DNA from: Dehalococcoidia bacterium
GTDB taxonomy: Bacteria; Chloroflexota; Dehalococcoidia; DSTF01; JACRBR01
Direction of reading: 5' to 3'
NCBI GenBank assembly: GCA_021462855.1
Contig: JAJTXQ010000020.1
Span: forward strand, 1-64,000
Length of the DNA: 64,000 nt
Every line of letters starts with the position of its first letter. The stretch's first letter is position 1. The notes beneath the pieces were generated by a model. The model was not told the DNA's origin, did not search any database, and saw only the letters and a list, made by a program, of their open reading frames with translations. Shown here one piece after another: positions 44,112 to 62,508 of this stretch. The position numbers and the translations under genes are program-made.

Positions 44112-45589
44112 GCCGGCGCGAGCTGCCGTGCGGCTCGGTCTTCGAGGACCATCCGCGCGACCTTCATGCCGGAGTCGGTCGCCTGGTGCGTGCCCATGCC
44201 ACCGCTGCCCGCATCGCCACCAACGAGGTACAGCCCTTCGATCGGCGAGCGGGGCGAAGGCTTGAGCGCGCCGCACTGCCCGGCGATCTGCCCGATGCCG
44301 ACGCACTCGCCGCCCTGCCCGGGCAACACGTGGTCGCGCGACAGCGATGACACGTCGGCCGGCCCCTCGCGGTCCATGGAATCGAGCGCCGCCCAAGCGT
44401 CCGGGAAGAGACGCGCCATCATCTCGTCCATCCGCTGCCAGAGCGCCGCGATCTCCTTCGCTTCGGGGTCGGGCGAGCAGATCGTGCCGGCGATGATGCA
44501 CTGTTTGCCGGGGGGCGCCATGTTCGTGTCGAAGTTCGATGGCACGGTCATGAACATGATCACTTCGTCGGGGATCTGGCCGGCGCGGGCGCGCTCGAAC
44601 CGCTCGACGTTCCACCACGTGTCGTCGGCGTAGACCATGTACATGCAGTGCTGCATCGCGCGCTGGTTGAGGAAGTAGCGCACGCCGGTGAACCCCCATC
44701 CTGGCACGAGCGACCGCACGTACGCCGCGTATGACGGGTCGAAGCGTTCCTCGCCGACCAGCTTCAGCACCGTCGGCTGAATGCCCGCGTTGCTGATGAC
44801 GATCGGAGCGGTGAACACGCCGTCGGCCGTGGCGACGCCGGTCGCCCGGCCGCCTTCGACGATGATCCGCTCGACGCGCTGCCGCGTGCGCAGCGTCCCG
44901 CCGCCGGCGACGAACGCGTCGGTGATCGCCTCGAACAGCGAGCCGAAGCCGCCGGTGTAGTAGCCGCCGCCACCCGCCGCCGCGATCTGCTTGAGGATGC
45001 GGATCTGCTCCGACGCCGCGACCAGGTCGATCGGCTCGGCGAGCGACGCGTTGGCGTGCATCGCCAGGTAGCTGTAGAGGGGGTACGGCACTTCGCGCGT
45101 CTGCAGCCAGTCGTGCAGTGTCACGTTGTCGAGCGTGGCGAGTGTCTCCTCCGGCATCAGCACCATCTCGGCGAGGACGCGCGCCGCCGGCTCGCGCTCG
45201 CTCTCATCCAGCTCCCAGAGCTCGAAGAACGGCGCCGGGTCCATGCCCGTCGACTGGCCGGTGATCTTCGTCTTGTATGCGCCGGAACGCCCACGGTAGA
45301 CCATTGCGGCCGCCTCGAGCGGGATGGGGTGGAAGCGCGCTTCGATGCCGAGCTCGGCGAACAGCGGCGCGAACGCCGGCCCGCGCATCGGCACCTGGAG
45401 CTTCGGCCCGAGCTCGTACCGGAAGCCCTTGCTCTCGACGGTGATTGCCTTGCCGCCGGTGCGCGAGTTCTTTTCGAGCAGCAGCGTGCGCACGCCGCTC
45501 TTCGCCAGCAGCGCGCCGCAGGCGACGCCGCCCGGCCCGCCGCCGATGATGATCGCGTCGTACGCGCGGCCATCCGGGTTCGTGCTCAT
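44108..45589 (-). CDS. FAD-dependent oxidoreductase, phytoene-desaturase-like
   Basis: A 493-residue flavoprotein. IIIGGGPGGVACGALLAKSG at residue 14 is the FAD-binding Rossmann motif, RTLLLEKNSRTGGKAITVE follows, and the C-terminal FAD block is GLYLVGGDAGSGGMGTHQATD. The central part (GGFGSLFEAITDAFVAGGG) matches the CrtI/phytoene dehydrogenase group, which uses isoprenoid or carotenoid-like substrates. AGGAG before ATG 45589; it overlaps the molybdoenzymes on both sides by 4 nt. Placed between two catalytic molybdo-subunits, it may take electrons from the same pathway or process its lipid product. Confidence 0.85.
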   Translation of the reverse strand: MSTNPDGRAYDAIIIGGGPGGVACGALLAKSGVRTLLLEKNSRTGGKAITVESKGFRYELGPKLQVPMRGPAFAPLFAELGIEARFHPIPLEAAAMVYRGRSGAYKTKITGQSTGMDPAPFFELWELDESEREPAARVLAEMVLMPEETLATLDNVTLHDWLQTREVPYPLYSYLAMHANASLAEPIDLVAASEQIRILKQIAAAGGGGYYTGGFGSLFEAITDAFVAGGGTLRTRQRVERIIVEGGRATGVATADGVFTAPIVISNAGIQPTVLKLVGEERFDPSYAAYVRSLVPGWGFTGVRYFLNQRAMQHCMYMVYADDTWWNVERFERARAGQIPDEVIMFMTVPSNFDTNMAPPGKQCIIAGTICSPDPEAKEIAALWQRMDEMMARLFPDAWAALDSMDREGPADVSSLSRDHVLPGQGGECVGIGQIAGQCGALKPSPRSPIEGLYLVGGDAGSGGMGTHQATDSGMKVARMVLEDRAARQLAPA

Positions 45590-48423
45590 GACCTGCTCCT
45601 CTCGCCGCGTGCCTGCGGCCCGTCGGACGTGGCCTTGCTCACTTCGACGCGCGTCGCGCGGTCGACGTGGGTCGGCTGCCACATGAACGGCCAGTAGCGC
45701 AGGTGGCCGTACCCGCCGGCGAAGTGCAGCCACTTCACCATGGCGCCCTCGATGTTGCTCGGGCCGTCCCAGTTACGGAACTGGTAGGGATCCCATCCGG
45801 CGTAGCAGATCACCTGCCCCGGCCGGACGGACGGCGACGTCTTCACGCGCACCAGGATTTCGCCCATGTCATTGTGCAGGCGCACCTCTTCGTCGTCGGC
45901 GACGCCGCGCGCCGCCGCGTCGGCGACGCTCATCACGAGATGCGGCGCGCCGCGGTGCGTCTGCAGCATGCGCTTGTTGACGATGTTCGTGCCGTGCACG
46001 CTCCAGCGGTTGTGCCCGCTCGTGAGCATCAACGGATAATCGCCGCCCATCTTCGGCGGGTCCTTGTGAACGGGCAGCTCCTCGCCTGCTTCGATGAACC
46101 ACTCGTGGTCGATGTAGAACTGGGAGCGGCGCGTCAGCGTCGGGTAGGGCACCTTCTTCTCCACGTGGTTGCGCAGCGGCGACACCGTTTCATCGGGCTC
46201 GACCGGGCTCTGGTAGCTCTGCGCGTTGGGGAACAGTCCCCAGTCCGTGAACCGCACGATGCCCGTCGACTCGCGCATCGACTCGTACGTGGTGTCTTCG
46301 GGCACGGTGCCCATGAGCGCCGTCGCGGCGACGCCCTCTTCGGTCATCTGCTGCTCGTCGACCATGGTGCCGCCGCCGGTGAATGCATCTTCGAGCGTGT
46401 CCAGGCGGAACGGGCGGCCCGACGCCGTGGCGTACTCGACGACGCCGCGCGCCTTGCCGCGCTCGCCGAGCTTGCGCGCGAGCAGCCGGAAGATCTGCCA
46501 CTCGGGCAGCGTCTCGCCCGCGGGTTCGACGGCCTTTTCGAGCAGCGAAAAGAACATCGTCGCGGCGAAGCCGTGCGCGTGCGGGCGCTCGTACTGCTGC
46601 GCCGCCGGCAGCACGTAGTCGGCGTACATCCCCGTTGTGTTCATGCGCACGTCGATGCTGACGATGGTCTTCATCTGCGGCCACAGGTTGCGGATGAACA
46701 TCGTCTTGCCGCCGCGCGTGCGGCGCAGCAGGTTGCCGCCGACCTCGAGCATCACGCGCGGCGGGCGGTCGGCGGGCGGCACGGCGACGCCGGCCCACCA
46801 GCCCTTGTCCAGCGCCTCGTTGAACAGCTCGTCGAATTCGCGCGGCATGCTCTCGTCGTGCCACGTGCGCTTGTTCCAGATCTCGCGGTAGCCGACGTGG
46901 TGGTACCACCACCACACGGGTGGCACGTACACGCCCGTCATCGCGCTCATCGTCTGCATCAGCTCGACGGACGCGATCTCGTCGGTCTTCGTCGGGTCCT
47001 GCGCCTTCATGCCGTCGAGCGTGACGCGGAACATGGTCTGCAGATTGCGCGCCTCGTCGAGGCCGCCCTTCGAACGCGGCTCGTAGAGGTGCGTGCCAGT
47101 CGATGGCCCGGTGTTCCAGTAGTCCGGCCCCGCGCCCTTCTTCCCCCAGTTGCCGGTGAGCGCGAGCAGCAGGTACATCGACCTGCCCATGAGGTCGCCG
47201 TGATAGAACTTTCCGGTGCCGAGCCCCTCGTGCACGCGCGTCTTCTTCGTCGCGAATTTGCGCGCGAGCTCGCGGATGACATCGGGGTGCACGCCGCACA
47301 TCGCCGACGCGGCCTCCGGCGCATACGCCTGGAGGCGGCGGCGCATGAGCTCGAACGCAGGCGTCACGCGCACCGTCGCGCCGTCGGCGAGGCGCACATC
47401 AAACGCGCCGTCGAGCGCCGCGTCCACCGGGCCGAGGTCGAGCGTACCACGCGGGGCCTCGGCGATCGCCTTCGCGCGGAGGTCGTAGACGTAGAACTGA
47501 TCGTCGCGTCCGCCCTCGGCGACGTCGCAGGCGCGCAAAAACTTGCGGTTGTCCTCGCGGACGAGCAGCGCGAGGTCCGTCTGCTCGCGCACGAACTCCT
47601 CGTCCCACAGCCCGCCATCGAGGATGACCTTGCACATCGAGAGGCACAGCGCGGCATCGCTGCCGACCTTCACCGGCACGTGCAGGTCCGCGTGCATCGC
47701 CGAAGGGCTGTAGTCCGGGGCGATGATCACGAGCTCAGCGCCCTTGTATCGCGCCTCCATCAGGTAATGGAAGATCGGGATGCGCGTGTACGACGGGTTT
47801 GAGTGCCAGATGACGATCATCTCCGAGTGCGCGTAGTCGTCGGCGCTCGGCGTGATGTACTTGCCCCAGGTGAGACTCATCGCCGGCACGCAGTCGCCGA
47901 TGTCGGCATCGAAGTCGCCGAGCGGAAAGCCGGTGAGGTTGCTGAACCGACGCTGCGCCGTCATGCCCCAGGCGAGCGCGTTCGCGCCCGACGGCGAGAA
48001 CACGGCCTCCGGCCCGATCTCCTCGATCGCGTCGATGATGCTGTCGGCGATCTCGGTCAGCGCCTGGTCCCACGAGACGCGCTGCCATTTGCCCTCGCCA
48101 CGCTCCCCGGCGCGCTTGAGCGGATAGAGCACGCGCTCCTTCGCCGTGAGCATCTCGTCCCAGCAGGCGCCCTTCTGGCACCCCATCGGGTTGAGGTCGG
48201 GCACGCCCTCCTCGACGACCGGGAAGACGCCGGACTGCTCCTGGAACTGGATCTGGCCGTCCTTCAGGTACACGCGGTAGGGGCACGAGCCGACGGTCGG
48301 GTAGCAGTCCACTGCGTGACTGCTGTGCACGACCTTGTCCCACGTCCAGCGCTTTCGGTACGCGTCCTCCGTGGCGGCGGCGCCGTGCTTCGCACCGTTG
48401 GCGGGAGGCGTGGGTTTCGTCAT
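45586..48423 (-). CDS. Type II DMSO-reductase-family molybdopterin oxidoreductase, catalytic subunit (paralogue 2)
   Basis: A 945-residue paralogue of the gene at 41328, closely similar along its length. FS0 ligands are His36, Cys40, Cys47 and the Cys of NPMGCQKGACWDEM. The Mo-ligand region reads FDADIGDCVPAMSLTWGKY. MGD and C-terminal blocks match paralogue 3 (HEGLGTGKFYHGDLMGRSM, TSGHNRWSVHGTN). GAGGAG is 8-10 nt before ATG 48423. No signal peptide is visible, so the protein is probably cytoplasmic. It follows paralogue 1 after 31 nt. Known relatives oxidise or hydroxylate hydrocarbons (ethylbenzene, steroids) or reduce nitrate or chlorate; the Asp-ligand class is supported but the substrate is not. 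Confidence 0.88.
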   Translation of the reverse strand: MTKPTPPANGAKHGAAATEDAYRKRWTWDKVVHSSHAVDCYPTVGSCPYRVYLKDGQIQFQEQSGVFPVVEEGVPDLNPMGCQKGACWDEMLTAKERVLYPLKRAGERGEGKWQRVSWDQALTEIADSIIDAIEEIGPEAVFSPSGANALAWGMTAQRRFSNLTGFPLGDFDADIGDCVPAMSLTWGKYITPSADDYAHSEMIVIWHSNPSYTRIPIFHYLMEARYKGAELVIIAPDYSPSAMHADLHVPVKVGSDAALCLSMCKVILDGGLWDEEFVREQTDLALLVREDNRKFLRACDVAEGGRDDQFYVYDLRAKAIAEAPRGTLDLGPVDAALDGAFDVRLADGATVRVTPAFELMRRRLQAYAPEAASAMCGVHPDVIRELARKFATKKTRVHEGLGTGKFYHGDLMGRSMYLLLALTGNWGKKGAGPDYWNTGPSTGTHLYEPRSKGGLDEARNLQTMFRVTLDGMKAQDPTKTDEIASVELMQTMSAMTGVYVPPVWWWYHHVGYREIWNKRTWHDESMPREFDELFNEALDKGWWAGVAVPPADRPPRVMLEVGGNLLRRTRGGKTMFIRNLWPQMKTIVSIDVRMNTTGMYADYVLPAAQQYERPHAHGFAATMFFSLLEKAVEPAGETLPEWQIFRLLARKLGERGKARGVVEYATASGRPFRLDTLEDAFTGGGTMVDEQQMTEEGVAATALMGTVPEDTTYESMRESTGIVRFTDWGLFPNAQSYQSPVEPDETVSPLRNHVEKKVPYPTLTRRSQFYIDHEWFIEAGEELPVHKDPPKMGGDYPLMLTSGHNRWSVHGTNIVNKRMLQTHRGAPHLVMSVADAAARGVADDEEVRLHNDMGEILVRVKTSPSVRPGQVICYAGWDPYQFRNWDGPSNIEGAMVKWLHFAGGYGHLRYWPFMWQPTHVDRATRVEVSKATSDGPQARGERSRS

Positions 48424-48454
48424 CGTGGTACTCCTCGTCCTTGTGGCGGCGGCG

Positions 48455-51280
48455 CTATGCGCGCACCGGCGCGACATCGACGCGCGTCGCGCGGTCGGTG
48501 GGGCAGGGCTGCCACTCCATCATCCAGTACTTGAAATGCCCGTAGCCGCCGGCGAGGTGCAGCCACTTGATCATCCCGGGCTCGATGTTCGCGGGGTCGC
48601 TCCACGCCGGGAACTGGTAGCCGTCCCAGCCGTTGTAGATGATCACCTGGCCCGGCTGGACGGACTCCGTGACCTTCGCTTCGAGCACCGTCTCGCCGAG
48701 GTCGTTGTGCACGCGCACCTGCTCACCGTCGGCGATGTCGCGCGCGATCGCGTCGCGTGTGTTGATGAACACATGCGGTGCGCCTCGGTGCGTTTCGAGC
48801 ATCACGCGGTTGGCGATGTTCAGCGAGTGGATGCTCGACCGGCTGTGCCCGCTCGTGAGGGCGAGCGGGTAGCGCCCGCCCATCTCCGGCGGCTCCTTGT
48901 GGCACGGCAACTCCTCGCCGGCCTCGATGAACCACGGGTGGTCGATGTAGAACTGCGCGCGCCGCGTCAGCGTCGCGTACGGCTCCTTGCGTTCGATGTG
49001 GTGGCGGAACGGCGCGAACGTCTCATTCGGGCTGATGTCCGACGCCTGGGCGACCGCGCGCACCGAGATGCCGACGCCGCTGAACCGCTCGTATCCCTTT
49101 TCACGCAGCGTGTTCATCGAAGAGCCTTCGGGCAGCGCGCCGGTAATCGCGGTGTCGCGCACGATCTCGTCGGCGAGCTTCTCCTCGGTATCGTGCGCGC
49201 CCGCGGCGATCAGCGCCTGGTGCATGCCGGCGACGGCGTGCGTGCCGCCCTTCGCATCGCCGTACTCGGCGAGGCCGCGGGCCAGCGCGCGCTCCTCGAA
49301 CCGCTGCAAGAGCGCCGTGTAGATATCCCATTCGTTCCGCGCCTCGCCCGGCGGCTCGACCAGGCGGTCCGAGAACGTGACGTTCATGGTGTGCACGCTC
49401 GGGATCCCAAACGAGATCTTCTCGTATTGCTGCGCGACGGGGAGGACGATGTCGGCGTGCATCGCCGTCGTGCTCATGCGCGGGTCCATCTCGACGATCA
49501 TCTTGAGTTTCGGCCAGAGGTGCCGCAGGAGCTGGTTGCGGCCGCCGCGCGTGCGGCGCAGCATGTTGCCGCCGCATTCGAGCATCACACGCGGCTCGTG
49601 GTTCGCGGCGGGAAGCGCGACGCCGGCCCACCAGCCCTTGGCCGCCGCCTCGTCCCAGTACTCGCGGAAGGGTCGCGGTTTGCTCGGGTCGTGCCACTCG
49701 TCGCGCGACCATACCTCGTCGTAGCCCGCGTGGTGGTACCAGAGGAACACCGGCGGCACCATGTTCATCGGCGTGCCGGGGATCAGCGGCAGCACCTTGT
49801 TCATCTCGATATTCGCGAGTGCGTCGGTGAGCGTCGGGTCGCCGCCCTTGATGCCCTGGAGCATCATGTTCATCATCGCCAGCACTTCGCGCGATTCTTC
49901 GGGGCCGCCGCGGCGCTTGGCGCCGGCGACGCCCATGCCATCGAGCAGGCCGCCCATCCACGCGCGGATGCCGGTGCCCTTCTTGCCCCAGTTTCCGGTG
50001 AGCGCGAGCAGCAGGAGCTCCGACCGCTCGATCAGGTCGCCGTGATAGAACTTGCTCGCGTTGCTCAGGCTGCAGATGATGTTCGTCTTCTTCGACGCGA
50101 CGCTCCGCGCAAGGTCGCGGATCACCGCCGGTGCGACGCCGCACAGCTCCGCGGCGCGTTCCGGCGCGTAGTCGCGCAGCCGCTCGCGCATCAGCGCGAA
50201 CGCCGGCGTGACGCGGACCCGCGCGCCGCCGGCGAGCGTCGCCGCGTGCGAACCTTCGAGCGCGGGCGACACGTCGCCGTAGTCGAGCGTGCCGCGCGGC
50301 GCCTCGGCGATCTCGCCGGTGCGGGAGTCGAGCACGTAGAACTGGTCGTCGCGGCCGCCCTCGGCGACATCGCGCTGGCGCAGGAACTCGCGCGTGTCCT
50401 CGCGCACGAGCAGCGGCAGGTCCGTCTGCTCGATGATGAACCGCTCGTCGTAGATCCGTTCATCGACGACGACTCGCGCCATGCCGAGCGCGAGCGCCGC
50501 GTCGCTGCCCGGACGCACCGGAACGAACTGGTCGGCATGGATCGCCGAAGGGCTGAAGTCGGGCGCGATCGTCACGACCTCGGCGCCGCGATAGCGCGCC
50601 TCGTTGATGTAGTGCTGGTGGGGGATGCGCGTGTGCGCCGGGTTGGCGAACCAGATCAGCACGAGCTCGGAGTGGAACCAGTCATCGACCGAGCTCACGG
50701 GGTCGAACATGCCGAACGTGATGTACTGCCCGGCGGCGAAGTCCGTGATCTCGCCGTTGACGTCCATCGCCAGGCTGCCGACGAGCGACGCCATCTTGCC
50801 GCGCGCGAGCAGCGCGAGCGTGCTTGCGTTGGCGCCGCCGACGTGCAGGATCGACTCGGGCCCGACCTCCTGGATGCCGTCGACCATCGCGTCGGCGATC
50901 TCCGTGAGCGCCTCGTCCCAGGAGATGCGCGTCCACCTCCCCTCGCCGCGCTCACCGGCGCGCCGGAGCGGGTAGAGGACGCGCTCGCCGGCGTCGAGCA
51001 TCGAGCTCCAGGCGACGCCCTTCTGGCAGCCCATCGGGTTCATATCCGGCACGCCGCGCTCGACGACGGGCAGTGTGCCGGGCTGCTCTTCGCGCCAGAC
51101 CCGTCCATCGCGCAGGTAGACGCGCATGGGGCAGTTGCCCGGGTAGCAGTCGACGCAGTGACTGCCCCATCCCCAGGAGGTGTACGCGGTCTGCGCGCGG
51201 TAGCGGTCCTCCGCCGGGTGCGATGGTGGGTCCGTTGTTGCCGCCGCGCCGTTCGCCGCCGCGGCTCGACGTTTCGCCAT
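48455..51280 (-). CDS. Type II DMSO-reductase-family molybdopterin oxidoreductase, catalytic subunit (paralogue 1)
   Basis: A 941-residue paralogue, the first gene of the operon and the most divergent. FS0 ligands are His41, Cys45, Cys50 (HCVDCYPGNC, a C-x4-C spacing, two residues shorter than in the other two) and the Cys of NPMGCQKGVAW. The Mo-ligand region is VNGEITDFAAGQYITFGM. The MGD blocks (SNASKFYHGDLIERSELLLL, TGNWGKKGTGI) and the C-terminal domain (SGHSRSSIHSLNI) are complete. The N-terminus is Ala-rich with no Tat signal. It is divergent from the SCP2 fusion gene across 185 bp that contain the AACGATCGTT palindrome. Confidence 0.87.
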   Translation of the reverse strand: MAKRRAAAANGAAATTDPPSHPAEDRYRAQTAYTSWGWGSHCVDCYPGNCPMRVYLRDGRVWREEQPGTLPVVERGVPDMNPMGCQKGVAWSSMLDAGERVLYPLRRAGERGEGRWTRISWDEALTEIADAMVDGIQEVGPESILHVGGANASTLALLARGKMASLVGSLAMDVNGEITDFAAGQYITFGMFDPVSSVDDWFHSELVLIWFANPAHTRIPHQHYINEARYRGAEVVTIAPDFSPSAIHADQFVPVRPGSDAALALGMARVVVDERIYDERFIIEQTDLPLLVREDTREFLRQRDVAEGGRDDQFYVLDSRTGEIAEAPRGTLDYGDVSPALEGSHAATLAGGARVRVTPAFALMRERLRDYAPERAAELCGVAPAVIRDLARSVASKKTNIICSLSNASKFYHGDLIERSELLLLALTGNWGKKGTGIRAWMGGLLDGMGVAGAKRRGGPEESREVLAMMNMMLQGIKGGDPTLTDALANIEMNKVLPLIPGTPMNMVPPVFLWYHHAGYDEVWSRDEWHDPSKPRPFREYWDEAAAKGWWAGVALPAANHEPRVMLECGGNMLRRTRGGRNQLLRHLWPKLKMIVEMDPRMSTTAMHADIVLPVAQQYEKISFGIPSVHTMNVTFSDRLVEPPGEARNEWDIYTALLQRFEERALARGLAEYGDAKGGTHAVAGMHQALIAAGAHDTEEKLADEIVRDTAITGALPEGSSMNTLREKGYERFSGVGISVRAVAQASDISPNETFAPFRHHIERKEPYATLTRRAQFYIDHPWFIEAGEELPCHKEPPEMGGRYPLALTSGHSRSSIHSLNIANRVMLETHRGAPHVFINTRDAIARDIADGEQVRVHNDLGETVLEAKVTESVQPGQVIIYNGWDGYQFPAWSDPANIEPGMIKWLHLAGGYGHFKYWMMEWQPCPTDRATRVDVAPVRA

Positions 51281-51352: not shown

Positions 51353-51362
51353 AACGATCGTT
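51353..51362. promoter_or_regulatory. AACGATCGTT palindrome, candidate TetR-type operator
   Basis: A perfect 10-bp palindrome lies 73 nt before the molybdoenzyme start and 104 nt before the fusion gene start. A second one, GCCATATGGC, is at 51366-51375, and an inverted repeat CGGTGC/GCACCG is at 51397-51414. Such sites in a divergent region suggest shared repression; the TetR regulator at 61780 is a candidate, not a proven, partner. Confidence 0.45.
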
Positions 51363-51465
51363 AGTGCCATATGGCTTCAGGCAACACACTGTCAGGCGGT
51401 GCCTCACAGCACCGTCCGCGAGCGCCGCGCTATCATCGCGCCGCCGAAAACGAAGGAGCCGACAC

Positions 51466-53766
51466 ATGAGGTCAGAAGACCGCGATCTCACGACGCTGCA
51501 TGCCGCACTTGCCGCGTGGATGCGCGACAAGGCCGGCCCGGCGGCCGAACTCTCCGCGCTCAAGCGTCCGGGCGCCGGGCTTTCGAACGAGACGTGGATG
51601 TGCGAGCTGTCCTGGCGCGACAACGGCTCGACGCGGTCCTCCGGGCTCGTCGCGCGGCTCGAGCCCAGCAACCTGCGCGTGTTTCCCGACTACGACCTCG
51701 TCGGACAGGCGCGCGTGATGCAGGCGCTCGCGGACAGCGGTGTGCCGGTGCCGAACGTCCGCTGGGTCGAGTCCGACGCAGGCGTGCTCGGCTCGCCGTT
51801 CTACGTCATGGACCGCATTGAGGGCGTCGTGCCGTCGGAGGTGCCGCCGTACCACAGCTTCGGGCTGCTGTTCGACGCGTCGCCCGAGCGCCGCGCGGCG
51901 ATGTGGTGGAGCGGCATCGAGACGCTTGCGAAGATCCACCAGCTCGACTGGCGCGCGCGGGGGTTGTCGTTCCTCGGCGCACCGGGTGCCGGCACCGATG
52001 CGCTCGACCGGCAGCTTGACTACTACGAGCGCTTCCTGGCATGGGCGGCGGAGGGCGAGCCGCAGCCGATCCTCGAGGCGGCGCTTCGCTGGCTGCGCGA
52101 GCATCGCTTTGCGCCCAAGCGCATCTCGCTCTGCTGGGGCGACGCGCGCCTGCCTAACCTCATCTACCGCGACGACGCGGTCGCCGGCGTGCTCGACTGG
52201 GAGATGGCGTTTCTCTGCGACCCGGTGGCCGACCTGGCGTGGTGGCTGTTCATGGACTGGCAGGGCTCCGAGGGCTACGGCATCCCGCGGCTCGATGGCT
52301 TCCCGTCGTGGGAGGAGACGGTGCGACGCTACGAGGAGCTCACCGGCGCGCCCGTCGAGAACTTGCGGTGGCACGAGGTCTTCGCGGCGCTTCGGTTTGG
52401 TGTCGTCATGGTGCGCGTCGCGCGGCACATGACCGCGAGCGGCATCCCGACGCCGACCGACGACTTCCAGCACGACAACCCGTGTACGCAACGCCTCGCG
52501 CAGCTGCTCGATCTGCCCGCTCCCGGCACGCCCCAACGTAAACTCACGAACATCAACGAATCCACCGTGCGCGTGCAGTTCCACCTCACCGGCGGTGGCG
52601 GGCACGACTGGCACCTGGTCGCCGATCGCGGCATCGGGACGCGCTACGACGGCATCGTTGCCGATCCCGACGTGACGCTCACGGCCACGGCGGCCGACTG
52701 GGACGCGATCCAGCGCGGCGATCTCGACCGTACGCAGGCGTACCTCGGCGGCAAACTGGTGATCCAGGGCGACATGACGCTGCTCATGCAGCTCGACGAC
52801 ATGATCACGCGCCTCAGCAACGCCGGCGCCGGCGTCGCAGCGGCGCAGAGCGCGCAGTCCGCGCATGCCAGCGCCACGCACATGGTGACCGCCGAGGACG
52901 ACGCGCGGCACGTGCCCGGTCCCGGCGCGCTGCCGCTGTGGAACGAGAGCTTCTGGTTCGCGATGTACGACCCGCACGCCGATATCGGCCTGACCGTGCG
53001 CGCAGGCATGCACCCGATGAAGGGCGAGGGGAACATCTACCTCATCATCACGCACAACGGCGGCGTGGTGCACAGCCTGCTGGACCATCGCGCGCCACTG
53101 CCGCGCGAGCAGGAGCGCCGGCTCGAGATGCTCGGCTACAGCATCGACTGGGAGGCGCCGCTTGAACGCTTCCGGCTGCGCTATGCGCACGGCGCAACGG
53201 CCTTCGACCTGACCTGGGAAGGGACGAGTCCCGTGTACGTGTACCCGTTCCCGCCGGCGAGCACGGCCGAGCAGGTGCCGCGGCACATCGAGCACGCGGG
53301 GCGGGGGCGCGGAACGATCACGATCGGCGGCGCCGCGCACGAGATCGACTGCCTGGGGCATCGCGACCACAGCTGGGGCGGCGAACGCGACTGGGCGAAG
53401 ATGCCGCGCTGGGACTACCTGAGCGGCGAGTTCGGTGAGGACTTCTGGTTCAACGCCGTGGCCGTCTCGCTCGATGGCTTCCCGCAGGACATCCACCTCG
53501 GGGGCGTGTGGAACGGCGCCGAGTTGCGCGCGCTGGCGTCGGTGGAGATGCGTGTCGAGGCCGCGGACGGCGGCACGCGACAGTCGGGCTGCGACATGCG
53601 CATCACCGACGTGAAGGGCGACGCGTACCACATCGTCGCAGAGGAGGTGGTGGCGATCGCCCCCGCGCAGTTCGGCCGCACGTGGGTGAAGGACGGCTTC
53701 ACGCGATTCCGCTGCGGCGACCGCACGGGCTACGGCATCTTCGAGCACGCATACATCGAGAAGTAA
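51466..53766 (+). CDS. Fusion: aminoglycoside-phosphotransferase-like kinase, SCP2 sterol-carrier domain and DUF7064-like domain
   Basis: A 766-residue protein with three parts. Residues 30-330 are an APH/choline-kinase-like fold: GAGLSNETWMCEL as the nucleotide loop region and CWGDARLPN (about 222) as the Brenner motif, then GVLDWEMAFLCDPVADLAWW. Residues 365-450 form an SCP2 sterol-carrier domain, a cavity-bearing lipid-binding fold (VQFHLTGGGGHDWHLVADRG to YLGGKLVIQGDMTLLMQLDD). Residues 490-766 resemble lipocalin-like DUF7064/CrtC-type proteins with WNESFWFAMYDP and GHRDHSWGGERDW. GAAGGAG precedes ATG 51466. It could phosphorylate a bound sterol-like alcohol. It is divergent from the molybdoenzyme operon. 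Confidence 0.82.
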   Translation: MRSEDRDLTTLHAALAAWMRDKAGPAAELSALKRPGAGLSNETWMCELSWRDNGSTRSSGLVARLEPSNLRVFPDYDLVGQARVMQALADSGVPVPNVRWVESDAGVLGSPFYVMDRIEGVVPSEVPPYHSFGLLFDASPERRAAMWWSGIETLAKIHQLDWRARGLSFLGAPGAGTDALDRQLDYYERFLAWAAEGEPQPILEAALRWLREHRFAPKRISLCWGDARLPNLIYRDDAVAGVLDWEMAFLCDPVADLAWWLFMDWQGSEGYGIPRLDGFPSWEETVRRYEELTGAPVENLRWHEVFAALRFGVVMVRVARHMTASGIPTPTDDFQHDNPCTQRLAQLLDLPAPGTPQRKLTNINESTVRVQFHLTGGGGHDWHLVADRGIGTRYDGIVADPDVTLTATAADWDAIQRGDLDRTQAYLGGKLVIQGDMTLLMQLDDMITRLSNAGAGVAAAQSAQSAHASATHMVTAEDDARHVPGPGALPLWNESFWFAMYDPHADIGLTVRAGMHPMKGEGNIYLIITHNGGVVHSLLDHRAPLPREQERRLEMLGYSIDWEAPLERFRLRYAHGATAFDLTWEGTSPVYVYPFPPASTAEQVPRHIEHAGRGRGTITIGGAAHEIDCLGHRDHSWGGERDWAKMPRWDYLSGEFGEDFWFNAVAVSLDGFPQDIHLGGVWNGAELRALASVEMRVEAADGGTRQSGCDMRITDVKGDAYHIVAEEVVAIAPAQFGRTWVKDGFTRFRCGDRTGYGIFEHAYIEK

Positions 53767-53769
53767 CGG

Positions 53770-54909
53770 CTACCGCGCGCGGTCGGCGCCGGCCGTCAGG
53801 TCGGCGACGCGCGCCACCGTCGCGAGGTACTCCTCGACCATGTCGTAGATCACCTGGCGCGCCGGTTTCACCGACCGCATCCGGCCGACGATCTGGCCGA
53901 CGGGCGAACCAACCAGCTCACGGGCGCCGGGCCGGTCATCGGCGTAGCGGTGGATGCGGCTCACCGCCTCGGACGTGAGCATGAACTGGAGCGGCATCGG
54001 CAGCGTGCCGGGCGACTCCTCGCCGTCCCACGCCTCCGTCCACGCGGTGCGCAGCTGCCGCGCCGGCTTGCCCGTGAGCGCGCGCGAGCGCACCGTGTCG
54101 CGCGACCCCGCCGCAAGCAGCTTTTCGATGATCACCTGCCGCGTGTCGCTTTCTGCGACGGTGAGCCAGATCGAGCCCGTCCACACGCCGTCCGCGCCGA
54201 GCGCCATCGCCGCCGCCATCTGCCGGCCGCTGCCGATGCCGCCGGCCGCGAGCACGGGGACCGGGCTGACGGCATCGACGACATCCGGCACGAGGACCAT
54301 CGTGGCGATCTCGCCTGTGTGGCCGCCGGCCTCGGTGCCGGACGCGACGATCATGTCGACGCCGGCCGCAACCTGCTTCTGCGCCTGCTCCGCCGTGCCG
54401 ACGAGCGCCGCGACCTTCATGCCGTGGGCGTGCGCCTTCTCGACGACATCCCTCGGCGGCGCGCCGAGCGCGTTGACGAGCAGCCTTGCCGGGTGGTCGA
54501 GGGCGATGTCGACCTGATTGCGCGCGCCGCCGTAGGTCCACCCGAGAAGCCCCGCGGGCGTCTCCGCGCCCTCCGGCAGCGGCGGCACGTCGAACCGCGC
54601 GAGCGTGTCTTCGACGTACTTGCGGTGCGTTTCCGGGATCATCTTTCGGAACGCGCCCTCGTCGAGCGTCGCGCCCTCGGAGGGCGCGACCGATGACTGC
54701 GGCATGACGATATCGACGCCGTACGGCTTGCCATCGACGTGCTCGTCGATCCAGCGCAGCTCGATCTCGAGCTGCTCCGGCGAGAATGCGAGCGCGCCGA
54801 GCACGCCCATGCCGCCGGCGCGGCTCACGGCGGCCACCACGTCGCGACAGTGGCTGAACGCGAAAATCGGGAACTCGATGCCAAACTCTTCGCAAACGCG
54901 CGTGCGCAT
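53770..54909 (-). CDS. Nitronate monooxygenase / enoyl reductase-like (NMO family)
   Basis: A 379-residue FMN-dependent TIM-barrel protein. Typical blocks are VVAAVSRAGGMGVLGALAF near the start, ASGTEAGGHTGEIATMVLVP near 195 (with the catalytic His) and VPVLAAGGIGSGRQMAAAMA. The C-terminus has an extra helical segment ending in a polar tail. In steroid and aliphatic degradation clusters, proteins of this family often oxidise or reduce enoyl or keto CoA esters rather than nitronates. It is the last gene of the TetR-led operon, 27 nt after the acyl-CoA dehydrogenase, and its stop lies 3 nt from the convergent fusion gene stop. Confidence 0.82.
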   Translation of the reverse strand: MRTRVCEEFGIEFPIFAFSHCRDVVAAVSRAGGMGVLGALAFSPEQLEIELRWIDEHVDGKPYGVDIVMPQSSVAPSEGATLDEGAFRKMIPETHRKYVEDTLARFDVPPLPEGAETPAGLLGWTYGGARNQVDIALDHPARLLVNALGAPPRDVVEKAHAHGMKVAALVGTAEQAQKQVAAGVDMIVASGTEAGGHTGEIATMVLVPDVVDAVSPVPVLAAGGIGSGRQMAAAMALGADGVWTGSIWLTVAESDTRQVIIEKLLAAGSRDTVRSRALTGKPARQLRTAWTEAWDGEESPGTLPMPLQFMLTSEAVSRIHRYADDRPGARELVGSPVGQIVGRMRSVKPARQVIYDMVEEYLATVARVADLTAGADRAR

Positions 54910-54936: not shown

Positions 54937-56133
54937 TCAGTACGACCGCGGCAGGCCGAGGTCCCACTCCGACACGTAGTTGAGGATCATCTCGCGGCTC
55001 ACCGGCGCCGTCTTGAACAAGCGCGCGCCGATCCACAGGTTGATGAGCCCGTACTCCTCCGAAAACCCGTTGCCGCCGTGCGTCTCGATCGCCGCATCGA
55101 CCGCCTTCGTCACGAGATCCGCGGCGAGGAACTTCGCCATGTTCGATTGCGTGCCGACCTGCAGGGGATCCATGCCTGCGTCGAACGACGCTGCGGCGCG
55201 GTACATCATCAGCTTCACGGCTTCGTGCCAGATCTTCACTTCGGCGAGCGGGTGCGCGATCGACTGGTAGGCGCCGATCGGCGTGTCTTTGAACACGCGC
55301 CGCTCGCGCGCGTACACGACCGCCTTGTCGAGGCAGTGCTGCGTCATCCCCGAGCAGATCGCCGCCGCGAGGATGCGCTCGGGGTTCAGCGAGTTGAACA
55401 TCGCCAGTGCGCCGCCGCCCTCGGCGCCGACGAGGTTGTCGGCCGGTACCTGGACATCGTCAAAGAACAGCTGCCACTGGCCGGCGCCATCGCTGGTGAG
55501 CGTGGGCAGCAGCGTCTTCGTCAGTCCGGGCGACTTCGTGTCAACGAGCATCAGCGAGAGGCCCTGTGACTTCGGCTTGCCCTCGCGCTGCAGTTCCTCG
55601 ACCGTCGTCGTGCGGCAGACGAGCAGCATGTAGTCGGCCTGCTCGACGCCGGTAATGAACACCTTCTGGCCGTTCAGCCGGTACACGTCGCCATCGCGTC
55701 GCGCCACGGTCTCGATGCGAAACGTGTTGGTGCCGGCGTTCGGCTCGGTGACGGCAAAGCACAGCTTCATCTTGCCGCTGGTGATCTGCGGCAGCACACG
55801 CGCCTTCAGTTCTTCGGACCCGTTCTTGACGATGCACGCCGCGTCCATCGACGTCACGAGCATCAGTCCGGGGAAGAACCCCTGCGTGACGAGCTCTTCA
55901 AACGCGACGGTGAGCGTGACCAGTCCGGAGTCGTTGCCGCCGTACTGCTCCGGCACCAGGCAGCCCAGCAGCCCGATGCGTGCGAAGTCATCCCACAGCT
56001 CCTGCGGGAATTGCCGCTCGAGCTGCATGCGACGGAACTCATCTCGCCGCGGGACGTACTTCTGGAGCATCTGGCGGACGGACGTGCGGACGAGTTGCTG
56101 CTCGTCGCTTAGCGCGAATTCCGTCGTGGTCAT
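54937..56133 (-). CDS. Acyl-CoA dehydrogenase
   Basis: A 398-residue FAD-dependent dehydrogenase that introduces the 2,3-double bond into acyl-CoA esters. Signature blocks: LCFAVTEPNAGTNTFRIET near residue 120, YRLNGQKVFITGVEQADYML, ERILAAAICSGMTQHCLDKA, and ETHGGNGFSEEYGLIN close to the end. I chose ATG 56133 (MTTTEFALSDEQ); further upstream codons overlap the enoyl-CoA hydratase gene. It follows that gene by 13 nt in the operon. The substrate class, side chain or fatty acid, is not fixed by sequence. Confidence 0.9.
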   Translation of the reverse strand: MTTTEFALSDEQQLVRTSVRQMLQKYVPRRDEFRRMQLERQFPQELWDDFARIGLLGCLVPEQYGGNDSGLVTLTVAFEELVTQGFFPGLMLVTSMDAACIVKNGSEELKARVLPQITSGKMKLCFAVTEPNAGTNTFRIETVARRDGDVYRLNGQKVFITGVEQADYMLLVCRTTTVEELQREGKPKSQGLSLMLVDTKSPGLTKTLLPTLTSDGAGQWQLFFDDVQVPADNLVGAEGGGALAMFNSLNPERILAAAICSGMTQHCLDKAVVYARERRVFKDTPIGAYQSIAHPLAEVKIWHEAVKLMMYRAAASFDAGMDPLQVGTQSNMAKFLAADLVTKAVDAAIETHGGNGFSEEYGLINLWIGARLFKTAPVSREMILNYVSEWDLGLPRSY

Positions 56134-56146
56134 CCGGCGGTTCCTT

Positions 56147-56953
56147 TCAGCGCCCCTTGAACTGCGGGACGCGCTTCTCTTTGAACGCGCGCGGTCCTTC
56201 GCGGGCGTCCTCCGTCGCGTACACCTCCATGCCAATGCGGAACTCGACGGCGAGCGCTTCTTCCTCCGTCAGCCCGTCGGTGTCGAGTACAGACTGCTTG
56301 ATCTTGCGCACCGCCACCGGGCCGTTCGCCGCGACCTTCGCCGCGATCTCGCGCGCGGTCTGGAGCGCCGAGCCCTTCGCGACGATCCGCCCGATCAGCC
56401 CGAAGCGGAGCGCGTCGGTCGCGGGGAAGGTGTCGCCCGTGAGCAACAGCTCCATCGCCATGGTGAACGGGATCTGGCGGCGCAGGCGGACCGTGGAGCC
56501 GCCCTGCGGGAAGAGGCCCCACTTGACCTCGGTGACGCCGAAGATCGAGCCCTCGCCCGCGACGCGAATGTCCGTGGTCTGGAGGATCTCGGTGCCGCCG
56601 GCGACGCAGTAGCCTTCGATCGCGGCGATCAGCGGTTTGGTGAGACGATAGCCGCGCAGCAATCCTTTGAAGATCACATCGGGGTGCGCACGGCAGCGGG
56701 CCTCGAACTCATCCTCGGGCGGAAGCTTCGCGAGCGAGCGCGACACGAGTTTGTCGAGGTCCGCGCCGGCGCAGAAGTCACCGCCCGCGCCGGTGAGGAC
56801 GACGGCACGCACCTCATCGTCGGCGTTCGCCGCCTCCCACGCATCGGCGAGCCGGCAAAGCATCTCCATGTTCAGCGCGTTCTTCACGTCCGGGCGGTTC
56901 ATGGTGAGCGTCAGGACGGGTCCGTCGCGCTCGACGATCAATGCCGGGTTCAT
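56147..56953 (-). CDS. Enoyl-CoA hydratase/isomerase (crotonase family)
   Basis: A 268-residue crotonase. The oxyanion-hole blocks are GAGGDFCAGADLDKL near residue 54 and AIEGYCVAGGTEIL near 110; the position of the second catalytic Glu reads KWGLFPQGGSTVRL, where the Glu of classical hydratases is replaced, so isomerase, hydrolase or another crotonase reaction is possible. ATG 56953 has GAAAGG 8 nt upstream; longer frames lie in the neighbouring gene. Part of the nine-gene operon. Confidence 0.88.
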   Translation of the reverse strand: MNPALIVERDGPVLTLTMNRPDVKNALNMEMLCRLADAWEAANADDEVRAVVLTGAGGDFCAGADLDKLVSRSLAKLPPEDEFEARCRAHPDVIFKGLLRGYRLTKPLIAAIEGYCVAGGTEILQTTDIRVAGEGSIFGVTEVKWGLFPQGGSTVRLRRQIPFTMAMELLLTGDTFPATDALRFGLIGRIVAKGSALQTAREIAAKVAANGPVAVRKIKQSVLDTDGLTEEEALAVEFRIGMEVYATEDAREGPRAFKEKRVPQFKGR

Positions 56954-56978
56954 GCTGCGGTCCTTTCTTCGATCAGCA

Positions 56979-58601
56979 TCAGCGTTCGCGCGCAGCGGGC
57001 GCCGGCACGGCGCTCCCGGTGGCGTACGCCTTCGCCCAGCGGTAGTCCGGCTTCCCGGTCGGGGAGCGGACGATCTGCTCCGCCACGTGCATCTCACGCG
57101 GCGCCTTGTATCCCGAGATCTTCGTGCGGACGTGCGCCTGAACGTCATCGAACGCCGCCGACTTGCCCGGGCGGAACTGCACCACCGCCGCGACGCGCTC
57201 GCCCCAGCGCTCATCCGGCACGCCGACGACCACGGCATCGAAGATCGCCGGGTGCGACTTCAGCGCCTCCTCGACTTCCTCCGGGTAGATCTTCTCGCCG
57301 CCGCTGTTGATGCAGATCGAGCCGCGGCCGAGCAGCGTCACGCTGCCGTCGGCCTCGACCACCGCCATGTCGCCGGGCATCACCCAGCGTACGCCATCGA
57401 CGGTGACGAACGTCGCCGCCGTCTTTTCGGCGTCCTTGTAGTAGCCGAGCGGCATGCGCCCGCGGCGCGCAAGCCGGCCGACGACGCCGGAGCCGGGCGC
57501 CACGGGCCGCAGGTTGTCGTCGAGCACGGCGGTGTTCGCCTCGACCGTGAAGCGCGGGCGTGCGCCGCTGCCGCCGACGCCCATTCCCTGGTGACCGGCC
57601 TCCGACACGCCGAACGCGTTGATGAACACGGTCTTCGGCAGGTACTGCCGCAGCTGTTCCTGCACGGACTCGGAGAAGATGGCGCCGCCCGTCGTCAGCA
57701 CCATCAGCGATGAGGTGTCGTACGATGCGCCAGGCTCGGCGAGCGCCTCCGCCATCGGCCGCGCCATCGCGTCGCCGACGATCGAGATGATCGTCACCTT
57801 CTCGCGCTCGACGATGCGCCAGATTTCCGCCGCGTCGAAGCGGCGGCTGGTGGCCAGCGCCACCTTGCCGCCGGCGTGCAGGCCGATGAGCGACGCCCAG
57901 TGCCCGCTGCCATGCATCAGCGGCGCGGCGGGAAGCGTGACGCGCACGTCGCTGTTGCGCGCGATCTCCGCCTGTTGTTCGGGCCGCTCGATGTCTTGTC
58001 CGTACGGATTGCCACCCTGCAGCCCGGCGAAGAACACGTCCTCGTGCCGCCACATGACGCCCTTCGGCATGCCGGTGGTGCCGCCCGTGTAGAGGAGGTA
58101 GAGGTCGTCGCCCGAGCGCGGCGCGAAGTCGCGCGCCGGCGACGCCGCGGCGACCGCAGCCTCGTACTCCGCTGCGCCGAGCGACGCGTAGGCGGCGCCG
58201 CTGTCGTCATCGACCACCACGAACGTGCGGAGCGACGGCAGTTCCGGCGCCACGGCCTGGACGCGCGGAGCGAACTCGCGGTGAAACACCAGCCCTACGA
58301 GGTCGGCGTCGGTGAACAGGTAACGCAACTCGTCCTCGACATAACGGAAGTTGATGTTCACCGGCACGGCGCGGATCTTCCACGCGGCGAGGAACGCCTC
58401 GAGGAACTCCGGGCAGTTGTACAGGTACACGCCGATGTGGTCGCCCGGCTTCACGCCCTGCGCGGAAAGATGATGCGCGAGCCGCGTAGCCCGCTCATCC
58501 ATCTGTGCGAAGGTCAGGCGCCGGTCGCCCCAGACAACGGCCTCGCGCTCCGGCACCGCATCGGCGACGCACTCGAACAGGTCGGCCAGGTTGAACTCCA
58601 T
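56979..58601 (-). CDS. Acyl-CoA synthetase (AMP-dependent)
   Basis: A 540-residue ligase of the FadD/ACSM-like type. LYLLYTGGTTGMPKGVMWRH near residue 160 is the phosphate loop with a GG instead of SG; INAFGVSEAGHQGMG and WVMPGDMAVVEADGSVTLLG follow; the hinge-lysine region has INSGGEKIYPEEVEEALKSH and ISGYKAPREMHVAE. ATG 58601 is chosen for GGAGG 9 nt upstream. It would activate a carboxylic acid, such as a degraded side chain, to the CoA ester at the start of this operon's pathway. It follows a thiolase-fold gene by 11 nt. Confidence 0.9.
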   Translation of the reverse strand: MEFNLADLFECVADAVPEREAVVWGDRRLTFAQMDERATRLAHHLSAQGVKPGDHIGVYLYNCPEFLEAFLAAWKIRAVPVNINFRYVEDELRYLFTDADLVGLVFHREFAPRVQAVAPELPSLRTFVVVDDDSGAAYASLGAAEYEAAVAAASPARDFAPRSGDDLYLLYTGGTTGMPKGVMWRHEDVFFAGLQGGNPYGQDIERPEQQAEIARNSDVRVTLPAAPLMHGSGHWASLIGLHAGGKVALATSRRFDAAEIWRIVEREKVTIISIVGDAMARPMAEALAEPGASYDTSSLMVLTTGGAIFSESVQEQLRQYLPKTVFINAFGVSEAGHQGMGVGGSGARPRFTVEANTAVLDDNLRPVAPGSGVVGRLARRGRMPLGYYKDAEKTAATFVTVDGVRWVMPGDMAVVEADGSVTLLGRGSICINSGGEKIYPEEVEEALKSHPAIFDAVVVGVPDERWGERVAAVVQFRPGKSAAFDDVQAHVRTKISGYKAPREMHVAEQIVRSPTGKPDYRWAKAYATGSAVPAPAARER

Positions 58602-58612
58602 CTCCGCCTCCG

Positions 58613-59770
58613 CTACGGCTTCTCGCTGCCGACGATCCACATCGCGAAGAACTGCGAGCCGCCGCCGTAGGCGTGGCCGAGCGCGCGCTTCGCCCCATCG
58701 ACCTGGTGCTCGCCCGCCTGCCCGCGCACCTGCATCGCCGCCTCGGCGAATCGCAGCATGCCCGAAGCGCCGATGGGGTTCGACGAGAGCACGCCGCCCG
58801 ACGGGTTCACCGGCAGGTCACCGTCGAACGCCGTCGCTCCTTCGAGTGTCATGCGCCAGCCAGTGCCCTCGGGCGCGAACCCCAGGTTCTCCATCCACAT
58901 CGGCTCATACCAGCTAAACGGCACGTAGATCTCGGCGGCATCGATCTCGCGGCGTGGGTCAGTGATGCCGGCCTGGTGGTAGACCGCCGCCGCGCACTCC
59001 TGCCCGGCGCGCGGGTTCACCTGGTCGCGTCCGGCGAACATCGTCGGCTCGCTGCGCATGGCCGAGGCGTGCACCCACGCCGGGCGATGCGGCGCCGAGC
59101 GCGCGGCCTGCTCGCTCACCAGCACCATCGCGCACGCGCCATCGGATGACGGACACGTCTCGGCGTAGCGGATCGGATCCCACAGCATCGGTGACTGCGC
59201 GATCTGCTCCAGTGTGATGTCCTCCTGGTGCAGGTGCGCGTACGGGTTACGCAGCGCGTTCAGCCGGTCCTTCAGCGCAACGCGCATGCCGATGTCCAGC
59301 GGCGCGCCCGAGCGGCGGATGTATGCGCGGATGTGCGGCGCGAAATAGCCGCCGGCGCCGGCGACGACCGTCGGCTGGAACGGGATCTTCGGCGCAAGCG
59401 CCCACATCGCGTCGCTCTCCGACTGCTTCTCGAACGCGACGGTCAGGACGCGCTCGTGGATGCCCGCCTGCACGAGGCTCGCCGCGACGAGCGCCGTCGA
59501 CCCGCCGACGCTGCCGGCGGTGTGCACGCGCAGCATCGGCTTGCCGGCGGCGCCGAGCGCATCGGCGAGCATCAGCTCCGGCATCATCACGCCTTCGAAC
59601 ATGTCCGGCGCCTTGCCGATGACGACAGCATCAATGTCGGCGAACGTCAGCGCCGCGTCTTCGAGCGCGCGCAGCGCCGCCTCGCGGACGAGGCCGGCGA
59701 TCGACACGTCGGCGCGCTGCGACGCGTGCCGCGTCTGGCCGATGCCGGCGATCGCGCACGGGTTCGCCAT
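58613..59770 (-). CDS. Thiolase-fold protein without nucleophilic Cys (SCPx/Ltp2-like), copy B
   Basis: A 385-residue thiolase-fold enzyme. The position of the nucleophilic Cys reads LRVHTAGSVGGSTALVAA, Ser/Gly in place of Cys; the rest of the fold is complete (PSGGVLSSNPIGASGMLRFA near the C-terminus, with FSWYEPMWMENLG instead of the usual NEAFA block). In this family, Cys-less members such as Ltp2 are retro-aldolases that need a DUF35 partner. ATG 59770 overlaps the previous gene's stop by 1 nt. Two DUF35 genes lie upstream in the same operon. Confidence 0.8.
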   Translation of the reverse strand: MANPCAIAGIGQTRHASQRADVSIAGLVREAALRALEDAALTFADIDAVVIGKAPDMFEGVMMPELMLADALGAAGKPMLRVHTAGSVGGSTALVAASLVQAGIHERVLTVAFEKQSESDAMWALAPKIPFQPTVVAGAGGYFAPHIRAYIRRSGAPLDIGMRVALKDRLNALRNPYAHLHQEDITLEQIAQSPMLWDPIRYAETCPSSDGACAMVLVSEQAARSAPHRPAWVHASAMRSEPTMFAGRDQVNPRAGQECAAAVYHQAGITDPRREIDAAEIYVPFSWYEPMWMENLGFAPEGTGWRMTLEGATAFDGDLPVNPSGGVLSSNPIGASGMLRFAEAAMQVRGQAGEHQVDGAKRALGHAYGGGSQFFAMWIVGSEKP

Positions 59771-60828
59771 CAGTCCGCCTCCAGCACGCAGACGAGGTTC
59801 TGTTGCAGGCACGGGCCCGACGTGGCGTGCGCGAGCGCGCGCCGCGCCCTGCCGTCGATGATCCGCTGCGCCGCCTCGCCGATGCGGATCAGGCCGGCGA
59901 CCATCACCGGATTCGCGACGAGCGCGCCGCCCGACGGGTTCATCGCGGTGGCGCGGTCGCCGAGGCCCAGCGCGTCACGCAGGATGAGCTCCTGGTGCGT
60001 AAACGGCGCGTGGATCTCGGCGACATCGAACGCGCCGCCGAGCGCGCCCGCGTGCCGCGCCGCAAGGGCGGCCGACTGCGAGGTCGCGAGGTCACGCGCG
60101 CCGAGCGACGCCGGTTCGATCCGGTGGTCGATGCCACGGATCCACGCCGGACGCGCGCACGCCTGCCGCGCGCGCTCGCCGGCCGCCAGCACGATGGCGG
60201 CTGCCCCGTCGGAGACGGGCGGGCAGTCGTGCTCGCGCAGCGGCGAGACGATGCACGGTTCGGCGAGAGCTGCCGCCTCATCGAGGGGCGTGCGCACCTG
60301 CGCGTTCGGGTTCGAGGCGGCGTCGCGGCGGCTGCGCGCGGCGACCGCAGCCATGTCACGCTCGCTGTGATGGCCGCCATCGAGCATGGCGCGCGCCTGC
60401 AGGGCGGCGACGCTCACGGCGTCGGGCCACAGCGGGACGACGGAGTATGGGTCGAGTTGCAATGTCAGCAGTTCGGCGATGTCACCCATCGACGATTTTC
60501 CGAAGGCGTACACGAGGGCGGAATCGATGTCGCCGTGCTGAAGCCGCGCCCACGCTTCGTACAGCGCCCACGCGCCGTCCATCTCGACGTGTGATTCGGC
60601 CATCGGCGGCCACGCGCCGACCGCGTCGAGCGCCATCACGAACGAGAACGGCTGGCCGGCGAGGTAGTCCGACGAACCCGAGCACGTGAACCCGATCTCG
60701 TGCTTGGAGATGCCCGAACGGCCGAGCGCCTCGGCGACGACCGGCATAAGGATCTCGACCTCGTTCCGGAGCTGATCGGCGCGCACCGAAGGCGCCTGCG
60801 CGAACGAGACGACGGCCACGTCGCGCAT
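59770..60828 (-). CDS. Thiolase-fold protein without nucleophilic Cys (SCPx/Ltp2-like), copy A
   Basis: A 352-residue thiolase-fold protein. The nucleophile region reads PPMAESHVEMDGAWALYEAW, without Cys, while IHAPFTHQELILRDALGLG and NPSGGALVANPVMVAGLIR keep the C-terminal fold. It is paralogous to copy B but clearly divergent. ATG 60828 overlaps the DUF35 stop by 1 nt (TAATG), so protein and partner should be made in equal amounts. Expected role: with a DUF35 protein, aldol cleavage of a hydroxyacyl-CoA, or a structural half of a heteromeric thiolase. Function inferred. Confidence 0.75.
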   Translation of the reverse strand: MRDVAVVSFAQAPSVRADQLRNEVEILMPVVAEALGRSGISKHEIGFTCSGSSDYLAGQPFSFVMALDAVGAWPPMAESHVEMDGAWALYEAWARLQHGDIDSALVYAFGKSSMGDIAELLTLQLDPYSVVPLWPDAVSVAALQARAMLDGGHHSERDMAAVAARSRRDAASNPNAQVRTPLDEAAALAEPCIVSPLREHDCPPVSDGAAAIVLAAGERARQACARPAWIRGIDHRIEPASLGARDLATSQSAALAARHAGALGGAFDVAEIHAPFTHQELILRDALGLGDRATAMNPSGGALVANPVMVAGLIRIGEAAQRIIDGRARRALAHATSGPCLQQNLVCVLEAD

Positions 60829-62412: not shown

Positions 62413-62475
62413 GCGCGGAGTTTCGTCCGTCGCGCGCGTACAGTCAATGGTCTCGGCGCAGTCGCCCGAAAAAGA

Positions 62476-62508
62476 GCGATGCCCCGTGACGTTCGCACGG
62501 GGCATCGC
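62476..62508 (-). terminator. Intrinsic terminator of the SGNH hydrolase gene
   Basis: A perfect 13-bp stem, GCGATGCCCCGTG with its complement around a 7-nt loop, is followed on the - strand by TCTTTTTC. It ends the SGNH hydrolase transcript 20 nt after its stop and separates it from the TetR operon. Confidence 0.85.

Follow-up and report, generated by a model that had tools for sequence, protein, structure and literature searches.

The locus described here raises the question of what a single polypeptide joining a kinase, a lipid carrier and a lipocalin-like domain does beside a set of molybdoenzyme genes. The gene (P0001; 51466..53766, + strand; 766 amino acids) is located on contig JAJTXQ010000020.1 of the Dehalococcoidia bacterium assembly GCA_021462855.1, of which positions 1 to 64,000 were analysed (the window). 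Its product is predicted, with good but not full confidence, to be a one-chain ATP-dependent dehydratase; its target would be a tertiary hydroxyl group in a hydrophobic isoprenoid side chain, most likely that at C25 of a sterol-derived ketone. The analysis established the domain content and folds, the residues that are conserved, the pairing of the genes and the derived nature of the fusion.

In the sterol pathway used for comparison, C25 is hydroxylated by a type II molybdoenzyme, the alcohol is phosphorylated by the kinase 25-HSK, phosphate is eliminated by 25-PSL, and C26 is hydroxylated by a second molybdoenzyme, the C25 hydroxylation, phosphorylation and phosphate elimination having been described in Sterolibacterium (PMC7411048, PMC8449060, PMC11061730). 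Phosphorylation of the tertiary alcohol at C25 is near equilibrium (Keq 0.34; PMC8449060), and elimination must therefore follow quickly.

Reading frame and domain architecture

With ATG 51466 as start, the Pfam search of the chain returned, from N- to C-terminus, APH (residues 60-266, 3.7e-28), SCP2 (residues 369-445, 2.5e-13; 50.7 bits, gathering score 21.3), DUF7065 (residues 466-638, 1.8e-11; 44.9 bits, gathering score 27) and DUF7064 (residues 642-761, 7.9e-17; 62.2 bits, gathering score 24.7). Each match exceeded its gathering score, in agreement with the 766-residue tri-domain chain (kinase, SCP2, DUF7064) of the original prediction. Both motifs quoted there were found in frame: CWGDARLPN occupies residues 223-231, and GHRDHSWGGERDW starts at residue 631. 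The lipocalin-like C-terminus proposed at the same time was retained and refined: DUF7065 (52861..53379, +) and DUF7064 (53389..53748, +), as delimited by Pfam and an AF2 model, are the N- and C-terminal halves of a single AttH-like double-barrel unit. With the NCBIfam model Rv3169_fam the chain scored 67.4 bits, below the curated cut-off of 150.

Inspection of the sequence revealed a ribosome-binding site AAGGAG (51453..51458, +) upstream of the ATG, and the open reading frame ends with TAA. Third-position GC was 0.85-0.94 in every 100-codon block of the frame, domain junctions included, as in coding sequence. An antisense open reading frame (51472-53748) was rejected as non-coding, its codon GC pattern being the mirror image of that of the fusion frame.

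Kinase half

The kinase domain (residues 3-352; 51472..52521, +) was assigned by sequence match to the PDB, structure comparison and a phylogenetic tree. The best sequence matches were 25-HSK (9fsg, 8.8e-49; about 30% identity) and Mycobacterium tuberculosis Rv3168 (3ats, 1.6e-44). In the structure comparison 9ft5 ranked first (Z 37.5 over 347 residues, 2.6 A), tied with Rv3168 (37.4), and choline kinases and antibiotic kinases trailed at Z about 20-22. The 25-HSK entries 9fsg and 9ft5 contain 25-OH-CDO, or ADP and 25-phospho-CDO (25-phospho-cholest-1,4-diene-3-one in the title of 9ft5); the source organism of 9fsg and 9fzn was taken from entry titles and papers. The domain has an APH-type fold with the catalytic Asp and Asn and the metal-binding Asp of 25-HSK: the catalytic loop CWGDARLPN (52132..52158, +) provides Asp226 and Asn231, and LDWEMA (52192..52209, +) provides Asp244, invariant in the kinase alignment. 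D226, R228 and N231 were invariant across 35 aligned kinases. In the tree, the window kinase and 25-HSK fell inside one wider clade with support 100/100.

The fusion thus resembles 25-HSK (PMC8449060; 9fsg, 9ft5, 9fu5) in its APH fold over residues 3-352, in CWGDAR..N and LDWEMA, and in clade. Unlike the fusion kinase, which carries SCP2 and lyase domains, 25-HSK is a monomeric stand-alone enzyme that groups with Rv3168. Given the match of the kinase half to 25-HSK, the original proposal that a sterol-like alcohol is phosphorylated when sterols are used without oxygen still appears probable.

Lyase-like half and SCP2 domain

When the C-terminal unit alone was compared with the PDB by phmmer, nothing relevant was found; 25-PSL was reached by a profile of the unit, which matched 9fzn at 2e-12, far above AttH. 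The AF2 model of the unit had a pLDDT of 90.8. Foldseek searches with this model returned the 25-PSL entries as best matches (E 1.9e-14), and VIA-align superposed it on 25-PSL (9fzn/9g2i/9g4c) with Z 25.5. The motif RDxSWGxR reads LGSRDRSWG with Asp176 in 9fzn and LGHRDHSWG with Asp634 (53365..53367, +) in the window, the two residues being matched by motif comparison and alignment. Its Asp, W, G and R were identical in all 32 full sequences spanning the 25-PSL and DUF7064/Rv3169 branches. In 9g4c, which has phosphate and the alkene product bound, Asn replaces Asp176; from this substitution we infer that Asp176 of 25-PSL is catalytic, and Asp634 is likely the key residue of phosphate elimination.

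Since the C-terminal unit resembles the phosphate-eliminating 25-PSL, the protein should dehydrate its substrate and not merely phosphorylate or present it. The original prediction missed this expected elimination step. 25-PSL (9fzn, 9g2i, 9g4c) and the fusion have in common the double-barrel fold, the key Asp within RDxSWGxR, and an APH steroid kinase as partner; 25-PSL differs as a separate 362-aa protein from the window unit of about 300 aa, which belongs to the DUF7064/Rv3169 branch. No open-access description of the 25-PSL gene turned up in the literature, and a 2024 paper on the pathway still terms the enzyme putative.

The SCP2 sterol/lipid-carrier domain (52570..52800, +; Pfam) was poorly predicted in the full-length AF2 model (pLDDT about 30), as the alignment has few rows over this region, and neither the domain arrangement nor channelling can be read from that model.

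Two further lyase-like genes are present in the same genome. One (L185 7976-9106, contig C64) encodes a 25-PSL homologue that the tree places as sister to 9fzn; a zinc alcohol dehydrogenase gene comes next, and no kinase gene lies close by. The other (L186 3938-4939, contig C8) is a divergent gene of 25-PSL/DUF7064-like type, with two more molybdoenzyme alpha genes a few kb away.

Origin of the fusion

Two Chloroflexi metagenome-assembled genomes among the nearest relatives, B70T1L10 (L045) and SZUA-185 (L046), encode a kinase-SCP2 protein followed by a separate lyase. Between their two genes lie a stop TGA, GGAGG and an ATG within 63 nt. At the same place in the window (linker 52801..52875, +) the joint of 60 nt has no stop and no GGAGG, and the former start is out of frame. 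As several changes separate the two states, the fusion is derived and is not a one-base artefact; a single-base error at the joint was ruled out by this linker comparison. In B45T1L10 (L047) a kinase without SCP2 is followed by the lyase gene.

Molybdoenzyme genes like those of the window flank the L045 and L046 clusters. L046 (genome G014) has orthologues of all three window alpha subunits and a phytoene-desaturase-like FAD gene 57% identical to that of the window. A survey of 393 genomes of the class and 400 of the phylum (overlapping samples) yielded no second triple fusion. As far as these collections show, the triple fusion is new, with one case among the genomes sampled.

Kinase-lyase pairing in other genomes

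Close matches were found in 18 of the 393 sampled class genomes besides the window's own. At 14 of 16 class loci inspected, the orthologous kinase adjoins a 25-PSL homologue or is one gene away from it. The kinases of these 14 loci were 39-58% identical to the window kinase, and the lyases 31-41% identical to 9fzn over its readable fragment. At one unpaired locus (L172) the contig ends on the side where the lyase sits elsewhere; at the other (L176) no 25-PSL homologue was present within the stretch read. Kinase and SCP2 form one gene at most class loci, L180 and L181 being without SCP2.

Orthologous kinases thus have partners from two widely separated branches of the same lyase fold, that of the window and L045-L047 and that of the 25-PSL homologues elsewhere in the class, a pattern that suggests equal function through partner exchange. 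Across 80 DUF7064 loci, an APH kinase was encoded within 4 kb of the DUF7064 gene at 36, and at one further locus it was more distant. The evidence linking DUF7065/DUF7064 to phosphate elimination, likewise new within the collections covered, extends to Rv3168-Rv3169 and makes DUF7064 proteins such as Rv3169 candidate phosphate lyases.

At five myxococcotal loci (L057, L058, L064, L078, L102) the kinases were 40-43% identical to the window kinase, with the DUF7064 gene on the opposite strand, 0.9-2.3 kb away. Archaeal loci in metagenome-assembled genomes of Methanomassiliicoccales and Helarchaeota (L048, L051, L052, L055, L066 and others) had DUF7064 genes and no APH kinase in the fetched flank. 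Genes of at least about 650 aa were found beside the kinase-lyase pair or cluster at L170, L171, L173, L174, L175, L178 and L033; the L173 gene and one at L033 were tested and proved to be aldehyde ferredoxin oxidoreductases, for which oxidation of a C26 aldehyde is a possible step.

Proposed mechanism and alternatives

By homology to EbDH- and S25DH-type enzymes, a divergently encoded molybdoenzyme would hydroxylate the tertiary C25 with water. The N-terminal kinase, judged from its 25-HSK fold, clade and catalytic residues, would then move a phosphate of ATP onto the C25 hydroxyl group. The SCP2 domain, to go by its family and position, may hold the apolar steroid and pass it between the sites. 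The double barrel, with its 25-PSL-like fold and motif and its gene pairing, would expel phosphate by way of Asp634 and leave a delta-24 alkene. A second molybdoenzyme would hydroxylate C26, by then allylic, and the FadD19/EchA19/Ltp-type operon described below would shorten the chain.

Several observations weigh against this proposal. 9fsg pairs with Rv3168 (100/99) and the window kinase stands elsewhere in the wider clade, so that orthology with 25-HSK was not found. The lyase tree puts the window unit and L045-L047 on the DUF7064/Rv3169 side (100/99), outside the 25-PSL clade, although the length of the branches and the incomplete 25-PSL sequence make this placement less certain. No beta subunit gene adjoins the three window alpha genes, and at their N-termini (41328-51280) no obvious Tat signal was seen, unlike in the periplasmic S25DH/S26DH; these subunits may be cytoplasmic or mis-started. 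The ring-degradation markers IpdE2, 23dbph12diox and HsaB all remained below cut-off in the search, and haem-copper oxidases are encoded in the genome, which therefore need not be anaerobic.

The tree placements, the inclusion of Rv3168 (substrate unknown) in the kinase clade and the below-cut-off scores of the ring-degradation markers searched would also fit the same phosphorylate-then-eliminate chemistry on an alcohol, tertiary or secondary, that is not a steroid, such as a terpenoid or other branched lipid. This is unlikely, though the most serious alternative: steroid enzymes are the closest ligand-known solved structures for both halves, the chain contains SCP2, and the neighbouring operon is of the FadD19/EchA19/Ltp3/Ltp4 type. 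The C-terminal unit might instead be a hydratase, isomerase or binding domain of AttH/CrtC-like fold in a protein composed of a kinase and lipid-binding domains, since AttH, kievitone hydratase and fungal pericyclases reach Z values as high as 25-PSL against the lyase half, and identity to 25-PSL is only 15-18%. Conservation of RDxSWGxR, including the Asp replaced in 9g4c, the profile match far above AttH, and the partnering of kinase-SCP2 orthologues with 25-PSL homologues in other genomes make this reading improbable.

That two genes were joined by an error of sequencing or assembly, already considered in the original prediction, would be conceivable in a draft assembly, the more so as the L045/L046 genes share one frame with a single stop between them; with stop, GGAGG and start all lost at the joint and coding third-position GC even throughout, it is very unlikely. 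An antibiotic-modifying phosphotransferase with accessory domains, for which the Pfam APH match and weak hits to APH(3') and Mph models would speak, is hardly credible: the NCBIfam scores were far below cut-off, antibiotic kinases reached Z about 20 as against 37.5 for 25-HSK, and the context is one of lipid catabolism. The steroid-directed dehydratase is thus the preferred reading.

Comparison with known systems and significance

The chemistry of activation, described in Sterolibacterium, and the two types of enzyme were known before, and structures of 25-HSK and 25-PSL are public, so the "new activation step" of the original prediction was abandoned. What the locus adds is the fusion itself, with a lyase half that belongs to the Rv3169/DUF7064 branch. 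Sterolibacterium denitrificans has the same proposed sequence of molybdoenzyme C25 hydroxylation, kinase, lyase and molybdoenzyme C26 hydroxylation (PMC7411048, PMC11061730); its enzymes are separate and no candidate lyase is encoded near its kinase gene (PMC8449060), whereas the window joins kinase, carrier and lyase in a single gene next to those of molybdoenzymes.

Rv3168 (3ats) and Rv3169 of M. tuberculosis likewise combine an APH kinase gene with an adjacent DUF7064-family gene, co-regulated under a TetR regulator (PMC5340868); they differ in being two genes without SCP2, of unknown function and with no molybdoenzymes reported alongside. ACAD10 and ACAD11 (PMC11342911) also unite an APH kinase and a phosphate-eliminating domain in one chain for ATP-dependent dehydration. 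Their eliminating domain has the acyl-CoA dehydrogenase fold, their substrate is 4-hydroxyacyl-CoA and SCP2 is lacking; no ACAD domain was found by Pfam in the fusion chain, which is not of this type.

More tentatively, and at somewhat less than even chances, the fusion may serve as a Rosetta stone for a module of wide distribution: DUF7065/DUF7064 proteins, Rv3169 included, would be phosphate lyases that with APH kinases, Rv3168 included, dehydrate hydrophobic alcohols at the expense of ATP, here in one chain in which SCP2 would channel a high-energy tertiary phosphoester. This offers a testable function for DUF7064/DUF7065 and for Rv3169; the neighbouring protein Rv3168 was solved structurally in 2011 and has no known substrate. 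A kinase-carrier-lyase fusion would directly solve the problem of a near-equilibrium phosphorylation and would make ATP-dependent dehydration tractable in a single enzyme. The locus points to oxygen-independent activation of sterol side chains in uncultured Chloroflexota whose complement of type II molybdoenzymes is unusually large.

Genomic context

The pairing by divergent transcription with molybdoenzyme genes was confirmed: 185 bp separate the fusion gene from three type II alpha genes, all on the - strand. MoCo3 (48455..51280; ethylbenzene dehydrogenase (EbDH) alpha 2ivf, 1.4e-226) and MoCo2 (45586..48477) were identified by PDB search and families, and MoCo1 (41328..44144) by families; for MoCo1 the start ATG 44699 is too early, homology beginning at about 44144. 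The closest solved structure is EbDH alpha (MoCo3 and MoCo2 searched, the third by families). The phytoene-desaturase-like FAD oxidoreductase gene (44108..45589, -) lies between MoCo2 and MoCo1. About 14 alpha subunits of the type II DMSO-reductase family are encoded in the 3.0 Mb genome (contigs C13, C6, C28, C11, C8 and C33), more than the eight such molybdoenzymes reported for Sterolibacterium, and beta subunits are located on C11, C6, C33 and C23.

Convergent with the fusion gene, an operon and neighbouring genes on the - strand encode an NMO-family flavoenzyme (53770..54909), an acyl-CoA dehydrogenase (54937..56235), an EchA19-type enoyl-CoA hydratase (56147..57238; PRK07799; EchA19 6wyi, 1e-78), a FadD19-type acyl-CoA ligase (56979..58640; PRK07798), an Ltp3-type thiolase/aldolase (58613..59812; PRK08313), an Ltp4-type lipid-transfer protein (59770..61086; PRK07937), a ChsH2-C OB-fold protein in an Rv3521-like position (61313..61783) and a TetR-family regulator (61780..62505). 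Family calls were made with NCBIfam models at curated cut-offs, which the four PRK models exceeded; PRK07798, PRK08313 and PRK07937 are presumably linked to FadD19, Ltp3 and Ltp4. Actinobacteria need FadD19, Ltp3 and Ltp4 for C24-branched sterol chains (PMC6273163). The best guess from the gene content is a sterol substrate, possibly a phytosterol. In the divergent intergenic region, inspection of the sequence revealed a perfect, operator-like 10-base palindrome, AACGATCGTT (51353..51362), which a TetR-type regulator, for instance that at 61780-62505, could use as its operator.
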